From: Haloplanus ruber
GTDB lineage: Archaea; Halobacteriota; Halobacteria; Halobacteriales; Haloferacaceae
DNA length: 64,000 nucleotides
Assembly: GCF_024494725.1 (NCBI RefSeq)
Contig: NZ_JANHDK010000001.1
Coordinates: 434,001 to 498,000 of the forward strand
Reading direction: 5' to 3'
Shown here: piece after piece, positions 53,949 through 62,223 of the stretch
How positions within the stretch are numbered: position 1 is the first letter of the stretch
Layout: every line of letters begins with the position of its first letter
The notes under the pieces: model-generated
Told to the model about the DNA's origin: nothing
What the model saw: the letters and a program-made list of their open reading frames with translations, nothing else
The model's database searches: none
Made by a program: the position numbers and the translations under genes

Positions 53949-54521
53949 TCAGCCGTCGGCCGCCGTCTGGTTGCGCGTCGTCGTCCCCGTCTCGTTTCCG
54001 CTGGCACTGTACGTCCCGGGACAGTCGACGGCGTACGTCTGTGTGCCCCCGGAGACGTCGACGTTCGGTCCCGTCGCTGCGTCGAGTTGGACGCGCAGCG
54101 AGTCGGCACCGGAGACGTTGCTGGCCGTGGGCGGATTCACTCGTATCTCGGCTGCGTCACCGGGGTCGTACGATCCCCCGACGGTCAGATCGAGCGCCTT
54201 ACCCGGCCGTAGTTGTTGAACCTCGCCGTCAGTCCCGCCGACACGGACGTACCCACCGACCGCCTGTACCGTGACGTCGATCTGTTCGACGGTAGTGTTT
54301 TCGGGAAGCCGGTTGCGAACGAGCGTCTGGTCGTCCCCGGCACTCCCCGGCCCGCACTGCAGGCGTTCGCCGAACGCCAGATACGCTTCCGACGGTTCGG
54401 CGACAGTGACGTTCACGCTCCGATCCGGCGAGGCTGTGGAGTACCCCCCGACGCCGAAGGCGAGGCCTACGGCTACACACAGCGCGAACACCGCCACGAG
54501 CCGTCGACGTTGGCGACTCAT
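53949..54521 (-). CDS. Small exported protein with SipW/DUF1102-like N-terminus
   Basis: A 190-residue protein from MSRQRRRLVAVFALCVAVG. The basic, hydrophobic N-terminus followed by GVGGYSTASPDRSVNVTVAEP resembles the exported beta-rich proteins cleaved by SipW-type signal peptidases (DUF1102/camelysin-like), where a GaYStvsadRsv motif follows the signal. The mature part is predicted to be mostly strands, with several N-x-S/T sequons and two cysteines (LQCGP and VDCPG) that could form a disulfide. It is coupled by ATGA to the DUF7344 gene and lies divergent from the SipW-like gene cluster, a likely partner. Confidence 0.7.
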   Translation of the reverse strand: MSRQRRRLVAVFALCVAVGLAFGVGGYSTASPDRSVNVTVAEPSEAYLAFGERLQCGPGSAGDDQTLVRNRLPENTTVEQIDVTVQAVGGYVRVGGTDGEVQQLRPGKALDLTVGGSYDPGDAAEIRVNPPTASNVSGADSLRVQLDAATGPNVDVSGGTQTYAVDCPGTYSASGNETGTTTRNQTAADG

Positions 54522-55054
54522 CTGTCGACTTCCGGTGGTGGTCCCTCCGATCCGAGCCGCATCCCTCGGGTGTAGTAGGTGTGGATCAGTGCTAGTGTGG
54601 CGATGGCGGCGACGGTGAAGGTCGCACAGCCGACGTGGGTCATCCCAGACAGCATCGGGAGACCGAGGCCGTGACCGAGGGTCACGGCCCCTGCCAGCGT
54701 CCCAACACCGAGGTAGTAGAGGCTCCAGGGGAGTTCGTGACCCTGAACGACCTCTAGGTAGAGGTCGACGTCGTTCGCGTCGTCGGTGAGTTCGACCTCG
54801 CCCGCGCGCTGATCGAAGATCACGAGGTTCAGATCCGCCATCTTCGGGAGGTGAAACTGCTGGAGCGAGGTGTAGACGTTCTTGCGTGCGTCCGATCCCA
54901 CCGCCGCGACGTCGATATCGTTCTCCCACGCGGCGACGTGTTCCGCGAGGGTACCCAGTGCTGCCCGCTGTCCGTTCCGCTGTAGGTAGTGGATGACGAA
55001 CCGTCGCCGTCGGTTGCTCAGTACTTCGTATACGTCGTCCCGTGCGAGGCTCAT
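54518..55054 (-). CDS. DUF7344 membrane-associated winged-helix protein
   Basis: A 178-residue protein. Residues 1-100 form a winged helix typical of DUF7344: DDVYEVLSNRRRRFVIHYLQ, ARKNVYTSLQQFHLPKMADL, with a GEVELT wing. Two hydrophobic segments follow (about 110-130 and 137-160), so the DNA-binding domain is attached to the membrane. It is the first gene of a pair and could control the surface-protein cluster that it faces across a 350-base promoter region. Confidence 0.85.
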   Translation of the reverse strand: MSLARDDVYEVLSNRRRRFVIHYLQRNGQRAALGTLAEHVAAWENDIDVAAVGSDARKNVYTSLQQFHLPKMADLNLVIFDQRAGEVELTDDANDVDLYLEVVQGHELPWSLYYLGVGTLAGAVTLGHGLGLPMLSGMTHVGCATFTVAAIATLALIHTYYTRGMRLGSEGPPPEVDR

Positions 55055-55406
55055 ATCGTTCGGATCCCCCCAGGTTCACACATTCCGGACAGGCTACACT
55101 CTCCCCTCCCTTCCACATAAGTAACCGTTGCTGCCGGGTATTTCAGGCCCGGCAAACCGGTTCTCAAGCTCCCCCTGAACAACCTCTGTAGCCAGCTAAA
55201 ACCGGGAATTCACGTGTTTATCGGGGTTGTATCCGCCGTTCACGGATAGACCGGTGTTCGTGGGCGCCGCCGTTGGGTCGGCGGCCGAACCGCGGGCGCT
55301 GACCCGTGGCATCCCTCCTCGTCTCCGTCGGCGACGGAGGACACGTGCTACTCGGGGCCCGTTTGATAGCGTTCAATAACCCTACTACCAAGTGAATACC
55401 CCACCG
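55055..55406. other. Divergent intergenic region with three hairpins
   Basis: No credible ORF lies in these 352 bases between DUF7344 and the large surface-protein gene. Three inverted repeats are visible: GCCGGG...CCCGGC at 55133-55153, GCCGCCG...CGGCGGC at 55266-55285, and CTCCGTC-GGC-GACGGAG at 55323-55339. AT-rich tracts CATAAGTAACC (about 55115, for the minus-strand unit) and TTCAATAACC (about 55371, for the plus-strand unit) are possible TATA boxes. Confidence 0.5.
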
Positions 55407-56942
55407 ATGGAGTCGCACGGAGAACGGATGAGACCACGACGTTTTCTCGCCGTCCTCGCTCTTCTCGTCGCGGTAGCTCTTGCGCTTCCAACCTTCGCTG
55501 CCCCACTCGGCGACCCCGTCGGCGACGGCGTCAGCGTCGTCACCACCAACAGCACCAACGCCGAGTACGTCCGCGTCACCGGTGACGGCGAACTCACCCT
55601 CGATCTCGCCACATCCAATCCCGCGCTCTCCGGCGCTGGCGTCAACGCCGAGGCCGTCACCTACATCGACGATGCCTTCCGCGTCCGCTACGACGGTGAT
55701 CGGTTTGCGAGCGTGTGGCTCACTACCGAGGCCGACGGCATCGCCTTTCGTGCCCGTGGCGCACGCCTCGGCTCGCGCGCGGACGCGATCAGACTCAACC
55801 CTAATGGCTCCGCCTCGGTCGGGGTCGTCGTCGACACCACGACCGGCACTCCGCCCGAGGACGCCTCCTTCTCCGTCGAGGCACGGGTGGCCGAAGCGGG
55901 TGACGTGACTGACGGTACGGCGTCGAGCGGCGGTACCGGCGGCAGTACCGGCGACGGCTCCGGCGAAGAGACGCTGATGCAGGTGGAACACCCCAGCGCC
56001 ACCAGCCGGACGGTGACGGTCGAAAATGCCGTCGTGGGACGGCCGAACACGGCGGCGATGGATCGCCTCGTGGTGGACCGCGAGGGAGACGGCGTCGTCA
56101 CCCTCGACGAACTGACGGTCGTCGGCCAAAGCACGCTGGAGATGGACGTATCCGTAACCGAACCGGACGCCGCAGGGCCGCTCCCGGCCAGCACGTCGAT
56201 GCGGCCGGTTGGTGCGGTCAGGGTCGAGGAGCGGCGGGGGACAGTCGACCAGGCGATCTTCCGGTTCGCGGTCGACCGGGCGTACCTGGCCGCGACCGGA
56301 GTCGATCCCGAGTCGCTGACCCTCTACCGGTACGACGGGAGCGAACGGTCGGAACTCGACGTCGAGGTGGTCGGCCGGAGCGGAGGCGACGTCTTCCTCG
56401 AAGCCGACACGCCGGGGTTGTCGACGTTCGTCATCGCGGCGGCGGCTCCCAGTATCCGGGTCGAAGCGGCCGAACTCCGGCCTGCGACCGTCACCCCCGA
56501 CGAACGGACGACGGTGACGGCGACGGTGACGAACGACGGACGCGTGGCCGGCGAGCGAACGGTCGCGCTGACACTGGACGGTGATGTCGTCGGGGAACGA
56601 CGTGTGACGCTTGCTCCCGACGAGTCGGCACAGGTGACGTTCCGGGTCCGGGCCCCGGGAGGCACACACGATGTTCGCGTCGGCGCGGCCGACGCGGGTC
56701 GCCTCGTCGTCGAGGGAGCGACGCCGGACGGCGGGGCCACGCCGGTTGCCTCGAACCCCGCGGAGAACGTCACGGAAACGCCGCCCGCTGTGTCGCCGGA
56801 GGCGGCCGACACGCCCGCCGTATCGACCGACGAACCGGTGGCCGAACCCGCGGGAGGGTCGCTGCCGGCGACAGCCGCGTTCGTCGCCGGGTTGCTCGCG
56901 TTGCTCGTGCTCATGGCCCTCGCCCGTCGCGTCCGGCGGTGA
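55407..56942 (+). CDS. Large DUF1102/CARDB-type surface protein with C-terminal anchor
   Basis: A 511-residue exported protein from MESHGERMRPRRFLAV (a GTG 15 bases earlier or an ATG 21 bases later are alternatives). A signal helix is at about 12-27. A DUF1102-like region (about 30-165, with LTLDLATSNPALSGAGVN and YIDDAFRV) comes first. After a Gly/Ser-rich hinge there is a PGF-pre-PGF-like domain (about 220-345, IFRFAVDRAYLAATGVD, TPGLSTFVIAAAAP) and a CARDB-like beta domain (about 345-430). A Thr/Pro/Ala-rich stalk and a single C-terminal helix followed by ARRVRR end it. A cell-surface structural or adhesive role is inferred. Confidence 0.75.
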   Translation: MESHGERMRPRRFLAVLALLVAVALALPTFAAPLGDPVGDGVSVVTTNSTNAEYVRVTGDGELTLDLATSNPALSGAGVNAEAVTYIDDAFRVRYDGDRFASVWLTTEADGIAFRARGARLGSRADAIRLNPNGSASVGVVVDTTTGTPPEDASFSVEARVAEAGDVTDGTASSGGTGGSTGDGSGEETLMQVEHPSATSRTVTVENAVVGRPNTAAMDRLVVDREGDGVVTLDELTVVGQSTLEMDVSVTEPDAAGPLPASTSMRPVGAVRVEERRGTVDQAIFRFAVDRAYLAATGVDPESLTLYRYDGSERSELDVEVVGRSGGDVFLEADTPGLSTFVIAAAAPSIRVEAAELRPATVTPDERTTVTATVTNDGRVAGERTVALTLDGDVVGERRVTLAPDESAQVTFRVRAPGGTHDVRVGAADAGRLVVEGATPDGGATPVASNPAENVTETPPAVSPEAADTPAVSTDEPVAEPAGGSLPATAAFVAGLLALLVLMALARRVRR

Positions 56943-57000
56943 CCTCCGTCGACGAACGGCGGAGCCGAGGGCTTTTCCGGTGACGGTGACGTCCTCCGAT

Positions 57001-57843
57001 ATGCTCCCGCGGTCACCGTTTTCGGTGGCAGTGCGACGGGCGATCCGCGGCCGGGACTGTCTGGCCCTCGCCACCGTGCCTGTCGTCCTTGTCGGCGTCT
57101 ACCTCTCCCCGGAGCCGTTCCGCCGATCGCTGACCTTCTCGTATGCCGATCCGGCGCCCCTGTCGGCGGTCGCCGCCCACTTCGTCCACTTCGCACCCGA
57201 GCATCTGCTGGTGAATCTCGTCGGCTACGTCGTCCTCGCCGGGTGTGGCTACCTGCTCGCGGCGCTCGGAGGCTGTCGGCGGCTGTTCGGCGTCGCGGCG
57301 GCGACGTACCTGCTCGCCTTTCCGCCGATCCTGTCGGCGCTAAACCTCGCGGTCCCGCGTCGTGCCGTGGGCTACGGCTTCTCTGGCGTCGTCATGGCCT
57401 TCGCTGGGGTACTCCCGGTCGTGCTGTCGGTGTACGCGGGGCGGCGATTGGACGCCCGGGTCCGTCCGCGACACGCACCGACGCCCTTCTTCGCTGCGCT
57501 GGCGCTAGTGGCGCTGTCGCTCCCGCGAACGCCGCTCACCCTCGGTCTCGCGACGGCGGCGGGTGTCGCGACCATCGGGTACGCGGTGTCGGTCGCGTCG
57601 GCGCTCCGCGGAACGGACCCGCCCGCGACGCCCGCCGGACCGCGAACCGGATGGCTCGACGCCTTCATCGTCGGGGTCGTCGCCATGTTCGGGTACGTCG
57701 CCGTCGGGTTCGCCGTCGCCCCGACCGTCCGGGGTGGCGTCGTCAACCGCTACGTCCACTTACTCGGGTTCTGTCTGGCCTTCATCGTCCCGTACGTCGG
57801 GGTGGAACTCGGCCTCTTCAACGTGGCGGAGGCCGCCGAATGA
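57001..57843 (+). CDS. Rhomboid-family intramembrane serine protease
   Basis: A 280-residue membrane protein with about seven helices. The rhomboid signature residues are present: HFVHFAPEHLLVN in helix 2 with His68 and Asn72, the nucleophile Ser128 in GYGFSG (helix 4) and His253 in RYVHLLGFCLA (last catalytic helix). All of the residues needed for a Ser-His dyad are there, so it should be an active intramembrane protease. It lies between the surface protein and the signal peptidase genes, whose substrates it may cleave. The WR motif of loop 1 is not obvious. Confidence 0.75.
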   Translation: MLPRSPFSVAVRRAIRGRDCLALATVPVVLVGVYLSPEPFRRSLTFSYADPAPLSAVAAHFVHFAPEHLLVNLVGYVVLAGCGYLLAALGGCRRLFGVAAATYLLAFPPILSALNLAVPRRAVGYGFSGVVMAFAGVLPVVLSVYAGRRLDARVRPRHAPTPFFAALALVALSLPRTPLTLGLATAAGVATIGYAVSVASALRGTDPPATPAGPRTGWLDAFIVGVVAMFGYVAVGFAVAPTVRGGVVNRYVHLLGFCLAFIVPYVGVELGLFNVAEAAE

Positions 57844-57904
57844 CCGTCACTGTGGCCGGCGTCGACCCAGGATTTTTCTCGTCGACCACCGTTGGTGCCG
57901 GTGA

Positions 57905-59050
57905 ATGTCACCCCGTCGCGTCCTCGCGTTGGGGGTCGAGGCCGCCGTCGTCGTCGTCGCCATCTCGCTGGTCGCCGGCCAGGTGCTCGGCTACCCCGTC
58001 CTCCTGAGTTACGTCGAGACGGGGAGTATGGCGCCGACGATGGAACCCGGCGACGGCTTTGTCGCGGTGCCGGCACCCCTCGCGGGCGACGTCGGCGAGG
58101 GCGACGTGATCACGTTCCGCGCCGAGGAGATCCAAGGTGGCGGGCTCACTACCCACCGGGTCGTCCGCGAGACGGAACGGGGCTACATTACGCGCGGTGA
58201 CGCCAACCCCTTTACCGACCAGCAGGGGACCGAACCGCCGGTGACGGACGAACAGATCGTCGCGCACGCGCTGCAGGTCCGGGGGACGGTCGTCGTCCTC
58301 CCGAACTTCGGGACCGCCGTCGTCGCCGTGCAGGATGCCTTAGCTGGCGCTCAGCGGTGGCTCGCGGCGACGTTGGGCACTCGGTCGCTGCTCGGAACAC
58401 AGGGGCTTACCTACCTGTTGTTCGCCCTCTCGGCGCTCGCGTACGTCCTCGACCTGCTTCTGGGTGGTGAGCGTGACCGAGAGCGGTCTCGGAGCCGTAC
58501 CGATGGCGTCTCGACGCGACTCGTGATGGTGGGACTTGCACTACTCGTGATGTCGACGGCGACGGCGGCGATGGTCGTCCCCGCGGGCACACAACAGTTC
58601 GGGGTCGTCAGCGCCGAGTTCGACGCCGAGGACCCGACGACCATCCCTGCCGGCGAGTCATCGACAATCGACTACGGCGTCCCCAACGCGGGTCTCGTTC
58701 CAGTTCACGCCTACCTCGAACCGGGGAGTGACCGGGTAGGGGTCGACCGGCGGCACGTCTACGTGCCGAGTCGCGGGACGGAGACGGTCGGTCTGACGCT
58801 CACGGCGCCGCCGGAGACCGGCTATTACCGCTACTATCTCACCGAGCGGCGGTATCTCGCGGTGTTGCCGGCGTCGGTGATCGACGGTCTCTATCGGCTT
58901 CACCCGTGGGTGCCCATCGTCGTCATCGACCTCGTCCTCGGTGTCCCCTTCTACGTCCTCGGCGTCTCTCTGGTCGGGACGGGACGCCTTCGGACCCGGT
59001 CGCGGGACCGTCCCTCTCGTCTCCGTCGCCTGTGGACCCGGTTCACCTGA
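57905..59050 (+). CDS. SipW-like signal peptidase I with a fused C-terminal domain
   Basis: A 381-residue membrane protein. Residues 1-130 are an ER/archaeal-type signal peptidase: the catalytic Ser41 in ETGSMAPTM, His84 in TTHRVV in place of the bacterial Lys, and Asp99 in RGDANPFTDQ. A second helix (about 165-180) is followed by a hydrophobic segment (about 200-220), then an outer beta-rich region (about 225-320) and a last helix (about 335-360). The outer domain is not part of minimal archaeal peptidases and could hold or guide substrates. It likely processes the exported proteins in this cluster. Confidence 0.85.
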   Translation: MSPRRVLALGVEAAVVVVAISLVAGQVLGYPVLLSYVETGSMAPTMEPGDGFVAVPAPLAGDVGEGDVITFRAEEIQGGGLTTHRVVRETERGYITRGDANPFTDQQGTEPPVTDEQIVAHALQVRGTVVVLPNFGTAVVAVQDALAGAQRWLAATLGTRSLLGTQGLTYLLFALSALAYVLDLLLGGERDRERSRSRTDGVSTRLVMVGLALLVMSTATAAMVVPAGTQQFGVVSAEFDAEDPTTIPAGESSTIDYGVPNAGLVPVHAYLEPGSDRVGVDRRHVYVPSRGTETVGLTLTAPPETGYYRYYLTERRYLAVLPASVIDGLYRLHPWVPIVVIDLVLGVPFYVLGVSLVGTGRLRTRSRDRPSRLRRLWTRFT

Positions 59051-59136
59051 TCGGCGGCGTCGGTCTACCGGCCCCGGCGGCGCATCTCTCCTCCGTTCCT
59101 CAACTTTCTTGTCGCCGCCCCGGAAAGTAGGCGTTC

Positions 59137-60309
59137 ATGGCGTGGGGGAGCGACTGGCCGCGAGGCCGTATCGTCCTGTCAGAGTGGTTCGTCGTCATCG
59201 CCGCCGTCGCGGCGATGTTGGCCCTTGTCGGAGGGGCCGTGACGTACACCGCGTACGCCTCGCCGGGGACGACCGTCGAGGAACGCCAGGTGTCCTCGTG
59301 GGAGGGTAACGGCACCTACACCACGACGGCTCGGGTGACCGAACCAAACCCGCTGTATCCGGTCGGCACGGAACTGTCGGAGCGCCCGGCGTATTTCCTC
59401 TCGGTGAGCCCACGGATGCAAGGTCGGTTCGCGTTCGGCTACGAGGCAACCGATGACGGGTCACTCGACGTGACCGCGGAGAGTCGGCTGGTGATGCGCT
59501 CTATTGCGGAGTCAGATGACGGATCGCCCGTCGAGTACTGGCGCATGGAGGAGTCCATCGACTCGACGCGGGTGACGGGGGTACCACCGGGACGGTCGGT
59601 CGAACTGACCTTCGAGCGCAACGTCTCCCGGACGCTCGACCGGATGGAGAACGTCTCGGATCGACTCGGCGGCTCGCCGGGGTCGCTCCAACTGCGCGCG
59701 GTGACCCGCGTCCGAATCGCCGGCGAGGTGAACGGACAGTCGGTGAACCGCTCTGCCGAGTACACGCTGCCCATCGAGACGGACCGATCGACCTACCGCC
59801 CACGGTCGACCCAGGGGTCGGCAGTCACGGGATCGACCACCGAGCGAATTACCCGCCAGCAGACGTACGGGCCGCTGTGGCGCCTCGGTGGACCGGCGGC
59901 GACAATACTCGGTCTCGTCGCCTTTGTCGGTCTCCTCTATGGCCGCGCGGCCGGCCGGTTTGCCGTCACGGACGCCGAACGTGAAGCGGTTGCGTTCCGC
60001 ACGACCCGCGAGGAGTTCGACGACTGGATCACTGTCGCCCGGCCCCCGGAGTCGGTGTTCGACCGCCCGCAGGTCGACGTGGCGGATCTGACAGGGCTAG
60101 TCGACACCGCCATCGACACCGACGAACGGGTGTTCGAGCATCCGGACGGTACCGCGTACTACGTCCTCCACGACGACTGCTGTTACGTGTTCGAGCCGCC
60201 GACCGCCTCGACGGATCACGCTGTTCCGGGCGACGGCCCGACCGAGGGCGAGGACCCCTCACCCGAGGCCGCCGACGGCTCACAGGACGCGCCCGACGCC
60301 GATTCGTGA
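59137..60309 (+). CDS. DUF5305 membrane protein
   Basis: A 390-residue protein. A short cytoplasmic N-terminus and a helix (about 17-40) precede a large outer region of alternating strands (about 45-240, with ASPGTTVEERQVSSWEGN, VSPRMQGRFAFGYEA and RSAEYTLPIETD), and a second helix at about 255-275 returns the chain to the cytoplasm, where an acidic tail of about 110 residues follows (DDWITVARPP, HPDGTAYYVLHDDCCYVFEP). This fits DUF5305, an archaeal family often found beside SipW-type peptidases. Its role is unknown. Confidence 0.82.
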   Translation: MAWGSDWPRGRIVLSEWFVVIAAVAAMLALVGGAVTYTAYASPGTTVEERQVSSWEGNGTYTTTARVTEPNPLYPVGTELSERPAYFLSVSPRMQGRFAFGYEATDDGSLDVTAESRLVMRSIAESDDGSPVEYWRMEESIDSTRVTGVPPGRSVELTFERNVSRTLDRMENVSDRLGGSPGSLQLRAVTRVRIAGEVNGQSVNRSAEYTLPIETDRSTYRPRSTQGSAVTGSTTERITRQQTYGPLWRLGGPAATILGLVAFVGLLYGRAAGRFAVTDAEREAVAFRTTREEFDDWITVARPPESVFDRPQVDVADLTGLVDTAIDTDERVFEHPDGTAYYVLHDDCCYVFEPPTASTDHAVPGDGPTEGEDPSPEAADGSQDAPDADS

Positions 60310-60399
60310 GGGACTGGCCTCCCCTGTCGTCGCCCGGGAAGACTGCGCGGCGATGCCCTTGCCGAAAGGCGTTTCACCCCCACTTCCGTGATAGAGGAT

Positions 60400-62223
60400 A
60401 TGTCCGATCTCGGGGATTTCACGGAGGTGTCACCCGGCGACTCGTCGGCCGACGGGGCGTCGACCGGCGACGACGATCCGACGGCGGCCGGCGAGGCGGC
60501 GTCGAGCGACGACGCCGACGCGGACTTCGACACCTACGACGTCTCGCCGGCCGGGGCCGACCACGGTCTCGGCTCCATCTCCGTCTCCCAAGGGCTCCGC
60601 GTCGCTGAGGATGGCGACGATACGGCGCTAAAGGCGTTCATCACCAGTGACAACCGCGAATCGGTTCGTCTCGGGAAGTACGTGATCGTCCCCTATCCGG
60701 ACGACGAGACGCTCTTCTCCCGTATCACGGCCTTGGAGTACGCCCAAGAGTTCGAGGCCGACGACGCCACCGAAATCCACGCCCGACGGGCGATGCGCCG
60801 CGACGACTTCACTGAACGCGATTACAAGTTTGTGGCGACGCTCGATCCCGTCGCAGTGCTGTTCTCGGAGGGCGGAGAGTTGAAACGCCGGATGACCGAC
60901 CGGGTGCCGAAGCCAGGGGCGGTCGTGGGCGAGGCGACCGACGCCGAACAGATCAAGACGGGGCTTGCCATCCCCGCCGATGGCGTCTTTCTCGGCCATC
61001 TCGCCGTCGGGGGCGAGACGGTGCGGACGGCCGCGACGCCGCCGACTATCGACTACCGACTCACGGACGACTACGCCGACGGCGACCCACTTGTCTTCCG
61101 GCACACCCTCGTTGCCGGCGGCACAGGGTCGGGGAAGACCCACGCCTCGAAGAACGTCCTCCGCCAGTACCTCGACGCGTCGTATCCGATGGACGACGGC
61201 CGCGAGGTGCAAACGGCGGTGGTCCAGTTCGACCCCCAGGACGAGTACGCCCAGATGCACGACGACAACCCTGCGATGGACGACGACTTCGCCCGCCGCC
61301 TCGACCGCGAGGGGGTTTCCCACGGCGGCCACGACGACACTGTCGCTCTCGTCCCCGAGGTCGATGGGGCGTCGTACGGGGGCGCCACCCACCGCGCCGA
61401 GCAGGTCCCCTTCACCGTCCCGTTCCGAATGGTCCGGCGCCGGCCGTGGCTGGTCGCGGGTGCCCGCCTCAACGACAACCAGTACCAAGCGCTCGATTAT
61501 CTCCTCGACCGCTTCTTCCGCGATTACGGCGACAAGGCGACCTACGACGCGTTCACCTCGTTTCTCGACGACCCTGCGCTCCGCGAGGAACTCGACGAGT
61601 CCGGGCGCATCCACGAGGCTACCTTCGACGCCGTCCGGCGGCGGGCACTCGGGAGCGCCTTCTCTCGGGTGTTCGACCGCGACGCGCGCCCCGTAACCGA
61701 CTTGGTTCACGAACTCGTCCGCCCCGGTGGCTTGACCGTCGTCCCCACGTACCACGTCAACGACACCCGTGCAACCGAACTGGTCGTCCTCGCGGTGGCG
61801 AGTCTGCTGGTAGACGAGAAGCTATCGAATGATCCCACGTACGACCGTATCAAGGAGACACCGCTGATCGTCGGGATGGACGAGGCACACAACTTCCTGA
61901 CCGACGCCGAGAGCGTTCAGGCCCGGAAGGTCATCGGGAAGTTCACCGAGGCGGCCAAACAGGGCCGGAAGGAACGACTCGGTCTCTTTCTCATCACGCA
62001 GGACCCGCAGGATATCGCCGATTCGGTGTTCAAGCAGGTGAACACGAAACTGGTGCTCAACCTGGGCGACGAAGACGCCATCAGCAGCGTCAACATTCCG
62101 TCGACGCTGGAGGACAAGGTGCCGTACATGGAGAAAGGGCAGATGGTGGTCTACTCGCCGGACAACTCCGAACCCGTCGAACTCACCGGGTTGCCGGTCT
62201 GCGTGACCCGACACGGCGACTGA
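60400..62223 (+). CDS. herA: HerA-type ATPase (helicase HerA/DUF87 family)
   Basis: A 607-residue ATPase from MSDLGDFTEVSPGDSS (a GTG 12 bases earlier is possible). An acidic 55-residue N-terminus comes first, then the HAS-barrel region (about 60-220), and a RecA-like motor with Walker A GTGSGKTH at 241-248, Walker B LIVGMDEAHNFL and the sensor LITQDPQDI. HerA hexamers translocate DNA and act with NurA in end resection. The arginine-finger region (AAKQGRKERLG) is present. It could be the partner of the NurA at 51251. Confidence 0.85.
   Translation: MSDLGDFTEVSPGDSSADGASTGDDDPTAAGEAASSDDADADFDTYDVSPAGADHGLGSISVSQGLRVAEDGDDTALKAFITSDNRESVRLGKYVIVPYPDDETLFSRITALEYAQEFEADDATEIHARRAMRRDDFTERDYKFVATLDPVAVLFSEGGELKRRMTDRVPKPGAVVGEATDAEQIKTGLAIPADGVFLGHLAVGGETVRTAATPPTIDYRLTDDYADGDPLVFRHTLVAGGTGSGKTHASKNVLRQYLDASYPMDDGREVQTAVVQFDPQDEYAQMHDDNPAMDDDFARRLDREGVSHGGHDDTVALVPEVDGASYGGATHRAEQVPFTVPFRMVRRRPWLVAGARLNDNQYQALDYLLDRFFRDYGDKATYDAFTSFLDDPALREELDESGRIHEATFDAVRRRALGSAFSRVFDRDARPVTDLVHELVRPGGLTVVPTYHVNDTRATELVVLAVASLLVDEKLSNDPTYDRIKETPLIVGMDEAHNFLTDAESVQARKVIGKFTEAAKQGRKERLGLFLITQDPQDIADSVFKQVNTKLVLNLGDEDAISSVNIPSTLEDKVPYMEKGQMVVYSPDNSEPVELTGLPVCVTRHGD

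Follow-up and report, generated by a model that had tools for sequence, protein, structure and literature searches.

A divergent tafi-type locus of Haloplanus ruber with a rhomboid-family protease and a candidate C-terminal partner tag

Introduction

Rhomboids are intramembrane serine proteases, and to our knowledge the natural substrates of those found in archaea are poorly known. Haloarchaeal surface anchoring, for its part, is explained mainly by archaeosortase A. A locus of Haloplanus ruber brings both subjects together: within the window (the whole 64,000-nucleotide stretch of DNA that was analysed), six genes in two divergent groups place a rhomboid-like protein beside a large surface protein, a small exported protein and a signal peptidase. 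What such a locus makes, and what the protease does in it, are the questions addressed here. As the rhomboid has just one candidate substrate next to it, and this candidate bears a recognisable sequence tag, the questions of substrate and of anchoring become testable.

Organisation and conservation of the locus

The six reading frames, named A to F in the order B, A, C, D, E, F along the window (Table 1), are all open and lie in the positions and orientations of the original prediction. The genes A and B overlap in an ATGA, the stop of the DUF7344 gene lying over the start of the small-protein gene. C measures 516 residues from its GTG and 511 from the ATG at 55407, while the ATG at 55428 is also a possible start. 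Promoter and TATA scans of the divergent region between A and C gave no promoter evidence, and comparison with PHROGs returned nothing useful.

The co-occurrence of the six families across haloarchaeal genomes, proposed at the outset as a check, is borne out by a strongly conserved gene order. D and the surface protein C occur together in 33 of 243 genomes of the order and are adjacent in 31 of these 33. Around D, the relatives present B and A on one strand, then none to four additional small subunit genes (X) and, next, C, D, E and F on the other strand. This layout was found in Halorubrum, Halolamina, Halobacterium, Halarchaeum, Halobellus, Halospeciosus, Haloparvum, Natronosalvus, Natronocalculus and Haloarcula; since order and orientation are kept in so many genera, the arrangement is not due to chance. 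Gene calls in the relatives come from an in-house script trained on the codon usage of the window, so that starts and some small genes may be misplaced. As for the limits of the locus, a HerA/VirB4-like ATPase directly 3' of the DUF5305 gene (60388-62223) was considered as a further member and rejected, being tagged in no other locus. Neither this ATPase nor the upstream hydrolase is a conserved neighbour, and thus the boundaries first drawn are good.

Table 1. Features of the locus (window positions) and of the orphan subunit-like genes (contig positions in the same genome, G000)
Feature	Position	Strand	Basis or label
B, small exported beta-rich protein, 190 aa, positional counterpart of TafC	53949..54521	-	SipW-type signal region GGYSTASPDR
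A, DUF7344 winged-helix protein with membrane helices	54518..55054	-	PF24035
Divergent intergenic region, expected site of both promoters	55055..55391	.	position alone
C, TafF-like surface protein, 516 aa from GTG	55392..56942	+	profile vs TafF, CARDB, PGF-pre-PGF
PGF-pre-PGF domain of C, residues 283-349	56238..56438	+	TIGR04213, 36.9 bits (cut-off 28)
CARDB domain of C, residues 361-442	56472..56717	+	PF07705, 31.4 bits (cut-off 22.7)
C-terminal tripartite tail of C (VAEPAGGSLPA, hydrophobic helix, RRVRR), proposed D substrate	56814..56939	+	tail profile, E 1e-12
D, divergent rhomboid-fold intramembrane serine protease, 280 aa	57001..57843	+	fold and conserved residues
Codon of Ser128, presumed nucleophile of D (GFSG)	57382..57384	+	invariant, 61/61
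Codon of His253, presumed catalytic residue of D (HLLG)	57757..57759	+	invariant, 61/61
E, archaeal/SipW-type signal peptidase with long C-terminal extension	57905..59050	+	TIGR02228, motifs
F, DUF5305 membrane protein, final conserved gene of the locus	59137..60309	+	PF17231
Orphan subunit-like genes, two in tandem	C1:656777-657909		L248
Orphan subunit-like gene	C2:258261-258821		L220
Orphan subunit-like gene	C1:1076297-1076824		L249

Relation to tafi fibre loci

Tafi (Tat-fimbriae) fibres (Galeva et al. 2025) are known here through their citation in PMC12687288 and through the NCBIfam models NF052520-NF052523 for TafA, TafC, TafE and TafF. The canonical gene layout was derived from TafA-centred loci collected independently of D, and consists of F on the forward strand, TafF and TafE on the reverse, TafA, DUF7344 and TafC on the forward, and a SipW-like peptidase on the reverse. 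The DUF7344 gene thus lies between TafA and TafC, and a DUF5305 gene is present in tafi loci both with and without D. In the window, A matches PF24035 (DUF7344) with 100 bits (cut-off 27.8) and F matches PF17231 (DUF5305) with 163 bits (cut-off 29); both proteins had been correctly named from the sequence, and both are tafi companions. A coupling of DNA binding to the envelope through DUF7344, as first suggested, is conjectural. The SipW-like nature proposed for E is upheld by the archaeal signal peptidase I model TIGR02228 (55.3 bits, cut-off 51.85) and by intact TGSM, TTHR and RGDANPFTD motifs, the Ser/His/Asp motifs TGSM, TTHR and RGDANPF being found in the orthologues as well, although the Bacillus SipW model itself stays below its cut-off (32.9 of 190 bits).

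The remaining correspondences come from the comparison of profiles. The profile of C aligns with that of TafF over 149 columns (98.6% probability), and NF052523 (TafF) is matched by 4 of 16 C orthologues. The earlier description of C as a DUF1102/CARDB-like protein holds for its CARDB domain, while a DUF1102-like N-terminal part is backed by profile comparison only. B stays below the cut-offs of the curated models TafE (27.3 of 155 bits) and TafA (25.8 of 190 bits); its orthologue profile aligns with TafC over 139 columns (98.3% probability). The X subunits of the relatives align with TafE over 173 columns (99.5% probability), and their profile also matches a solved 215-residue chain labelled 'Pilin' (PDB 9p0a, chain 9p0a_C, E 1.9e-31), an entry for which a literature search found no paper. 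A signal region is common to B and X, and an RR motif, suggestive of Tat export, is carried by the subunits of the relatives and by the orphan subunits only.

All window proteins score below the curated Taf cut-offs. Proteins which do exceed the TafA, TafC and TafE cut-offs are found in several genomes among the same companions. Taken together with the correspondences of C to TafF, B to TafC and X to TafE and with the pilin match, these neighbourhoods indicate a divergent tafi-type fibre locus: TafF and TafC homologues share one neighbourhood (98% profile probability) with DUF7344, a SipW-type peptidase and DUF5305. On the evidence of its protein profiles, it is therefore a divergent tafi relative. 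An extracellular fibre of TasA-like type had been suggested for it, of which the fibre biology is retained on the strength of the gene-by-gene tafi match and the pilin hit, and the TasA-like part gives way to a tafi-type one. The TasA- or AbpX-like fold expected of the 190-residue protein did not appear: no TasA was among the matches of a fold search with the predicted model of B (pLDDT 71), whose best hits, up to Z 7.6, were unrelated mixed beta-sandwiches.

The window locus contains no X gene, and four orphan X-like exported genes (TafE/DUF1102-like) are found elsewhere in the same genome, where they are candidates for fibre subunits supplied in trans. The genome holds a single D of the locus clade and a single F. 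The locus may therefore serve as a hub at which subunits encoded in trans are processed and anchored.

Genomes with TafA and without D are common, which means that tafi can be made without the protease. The notion that a rhomboid is no standard member of such loci applies to tafi in general and fails for the present subtype, of which the protease is a standard member. In the Halorubrum tafi loci where D stands beside TafF (L063, L067), TafF ends in a single-helix ELAGFG tail. Some canonical tafi loci hold an incomplete D, truncated or in fragments (genomes G083, G162 and G020), and the gene seems fragmented or truncated in the Haloarcula-type tafi loci L208, L206 and L219, which suggests recent loss.

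Identity of the rhomboid protease

D is not matched by the rhomboid model PF01694, either by protein scan or in a whole-genome search, and no search against Pfam, NCBIfam or PDB sequences placed it above a cut-off; the rhombosortase model TIGR03902 gives 18.2 of 84 bits. The fold search alone settled its identity. An AlphaFold2 model built with 36 homologues (pLDDT 92) has GlpG structures as its best 33 solved matches (Z 11.8-13.1), the top one covering 177 residues at 3.4 A; iRhoms and a designed rhomboid fold come next at Z 9.7-10.8, before unrelated folds begin at Z 6.2. Moreover, all 61 homologues share Ser128 (GFSG), His253 (HxxG), His63 and His68, and 58 of them also have Asn72; the GxSG, HxxG and HxxxN motifs of rhomboid proteases are present. 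Given this GlpG-like fold and the invariant residues, the protein had rightly been read as a rhomboid with its catalytic residues intact, even though Pfam misses it.

The fourth position after the active serine is Tyr or Phe in ordinary rhomboids, while a His there marks the rhombosortases (PMC3237569). In D homologues this position is Met in 35 of 61 and Ala in 16, and the His of the rhombosortase SGMLH is missing. Judged by predicted fold and active site, D is thus a rhomboid outside both the ordinary-rhomboid and the rhombosortase groups. Homologues were found by a single-sequence search in 96 of the 243 sampled genomes. With a profile of the locus-associated D proteins, a clade scoring at least 165 bits comprises 52 genomes, and the following clade starts at 104 bits. 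This second D-like clade (L074-L092, about 70-104 bits) lies in several genomes near a protein of 706-814 aa.

Pairing of the protease with a C-terminal tail

The C proteins encoded beside D end in a tail of three parts: an acidic-Pro motif, EP[AGS][GA][FIL], a single hydrophobic helix and Arg-Arg. A profile made from 23 aligned tails, the sole means by which tails were sought genome-wide, gives at least 28 bits in 34 of the 52 genomes of the D clade (at least 165 bits) and in none of the 191 others, an association (Fisher 1e-28) which is inflated by the relatedness of the genomes. One of the 23 tails was entered with an E in place of D at the first column. The pairing was also approached independently of D, using tail-less C as the query. 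A C-type protein was thereby found in 41 genomes, and its tail is present in 33 of 33 genomes with D as opposed to 1 of 8 without it. The exception is G094, in which C ends in something similar, EEEGGFG. Among the 33, G072 reaches 23 bits with the tail profile, yet its sequence reads EPAGF. The covariation extends into a single genus (g55), where G101 has both D and the tail and G155 has neither. Genomes devoid of D still have B, A, X, E and F in the locus, and C is absent or has another end.

Tailed proteins also occur far from D. This is the case in seven genomes, all of which possess D (hypergeometric 1.5e-5, the related genomes again not being independent counts), as a trans-acting enzyme would allow. 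Four Halorubrum genomes have a second B-A-X-C set without D, E and F, and G113 has a B-A-X-C-E-F set without D. In the second Halorubrum sets, the tail of C is of EPxG type in L183, L185 and L186, and has diverged in L187. Furthermore, the same tail ends otherwise different giant surface proteins (1300-2650 aa, with CARDB, PKD or Big domains) beside D paralogues in L073, L132, L133, L143, L145, L146 and L151. In L132 and L133, the giant tailed protein and the D paralogue are accompanied by a further signal peptidase copy.

The pairing is not complete. D neighbours lack the tail in L061, L065, L069, L071, L090 and L219, no tail of at least 28 bits was found in 18 of the 52 D genomes, and the window C itself carries a weaker version, EPAGGSLPA instead of EPAGF. 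Together with the broken copies of D, this leaves room for other substrates of D or for a looser link. The tail was also considered as an already catalogued CTERM signal, an idea set aside on finding weak NCBIfam matches only (best GVDTG_CTERM, E 5e-4, 4 of 23). A gene for archaeosortase A (ArtA) is present elsewhere in the window genome; ArtA was rejected as the enzyme acting on C because the tail of C has no PGF motif. The covariation of tail and rhomboid lends indirect support to the second, intramembrane cleavage of an anchored protein that had been envisaged, the most likely substrate of D being C rather than the 190-residue protein.

Proposed mechanism and alternatives

We consider it probable that the locus is of tafi type and makes a thin fibre, or its anchored base or adapter, with E maturing the subunits and D as a dedicated protease, akin to rhombosortase, cutting the tail of C. 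In such a scheme, small beta-rich exported subunits (B, and X-like proteins encoded elsewhere) would form the fibre or its base. The subunits and C would be exported, the subunits possibly by the Tat system as suggested by the RR signals, and E would remove their signal peptides. The TafF-like C would then be held in the membrane by its single C-terminal helix, and D would recognise EP-x-G ahead of this helix and cut there. Cut C could be either released or handed to a new anchor, the latter by analogy with bacterial rhombosortase (PMC6219818) and archaeosortase A (PMC7157517). More tentatively, this would amount to an undescribed archaeal sorting system, in which a rhomboid-family enzyme that is neither archaeosortase nor rhombosortase, with an EPxG[FIL] signal, processes a Taf-type base protein and some giant surface proteins, possibly onto a lipid anchor.

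Whether a new anchor is involved is the point at which a simpler function of D has to be weighed, namely the regulated release of a fibre or adhesin by cutting the anchor of C. Rhomboid proteases hydrolyse, and canonical TafF stays anchored by a two-helix C-terminus, mostly in the absence of D, so that a cleavable single-helix anchor would fit release. However, the short tail of motif, helix and basic residues is built like GlyGly-CTERM and PGF-CTERM, signals whose substrates are reported or thought to be given a new anchor by the enzymes concerned (PMC6219818, PMC7157517), and release as the sole function appears rather unlikely. It is quite improbable that D is a rhomboid with a general role in membrane quality or signalling, placed in the operon by chance, with EPxG as part of an ordinary haloarchaeal anchor: the many tafi-type loci which do without D and C and keep the rest, and the D neighbours without a tail, are what would be expected of it, but the presence of the tail follows that of D from genome to genome, and within one genus too, and D is present wherever copies of C in trans carry the tail.

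The product of the locus is likewise subject to other readings. C could be a stand-alone adhesin or an S-layer companion, with B and the orphan subunits as minor exported proteins and no fibre at all. The window locus does lack the extra subunit genes of its relatives, four subunit-like genes are orphans, and the modest model of B recalls beta-sandwiches of mixed kinds; nevertheless, the gene-by-gene correspondence with tafi and the profile match to a solved pilin make this unlikely. A TasA/camelysin-type system, not specifically tafi, would share the SipW-type peptidase and the SipW-like signal region, and TasA and the archaeal bundling pili are related donor-strand fibres (PMC9674648). Against it, the closest annotated relatives are TafA, TafC, TafE and TafF, and no match to TasA or AbpX appeared by sequence or fold, an absence which is not an exclusion; such a system is very improbable here. 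The tafi-type reading with a dedicated protease is thus the one retained: the rhomboid is a fixed component of this tafi subtype, and with its partner tag it may represent a new system of C-terminal processing in archaea, which can be tested.

Comparison with known systems

The tapA-sipW-tasA operon of Bacillus subtilis resembles the locus in pairing a dedicated SipW-type peptidase with small fibre subunits, and differs from it in having no rhomboid, TafF-like or DUF5305 protein and no detectable sequence match. The rhomboid proteases RhoI and RhoII of Haloferax volcanii (PMC11985538) are also haloarchaeal and affect adhesion and biofilm, but they belong to the ordinary rhomboid family, whose model does not detect D.

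Closer to the proposed role of D is the rhombosortase/GlyGly-CTERM system (TIGR03902; PMC3237569, PMC6219818), where a rhomboid-fold serine protease is similarly paired with a C-terminal tail of motif, helix and basic residues on surface proteins. In this system cleavage exposes a glycine, which then carries a glycerophosphoethanolamine moiety (PMC6219818). D differs by its low score with the model, by the residue following its active serine, by a motif which is EPxG and not GlyGly, and by its archaeal host. The archaeosortase A/PGF-CTERM system has in common the tripartite C-terminal signal and the haloarchaeal surface proteins, C even having a PGF-pre-PGF domain, whereas ArtA is an enzyme apart, whose site is of the sortase-like Cys/Arg/His kind, and a PGF motif is lacking from the tail of C.

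Finally, the tafi locus shares with the present one a homologous surface protein and small subunits, a DUF7344 gene overlapping a TafC-type gene, the SipW-type peptidase and DUF5305, together with the Tat-like RR signals in the subunits of the relatives. The window locus is distinguished by the lack of a TafA-type gene, by the fixed presence of the rhomboid and by the cleavable-looking single-helix tail of C, in contrast to the two-helix hairpin, without the motif, in which canonical TafF ends. The recently described tafi fibres thereby gain a subtype equipped with a rhomboid, and a single kind of TafF-type base protein would exist in two forms, one proteolysed and the other permanently anchored.
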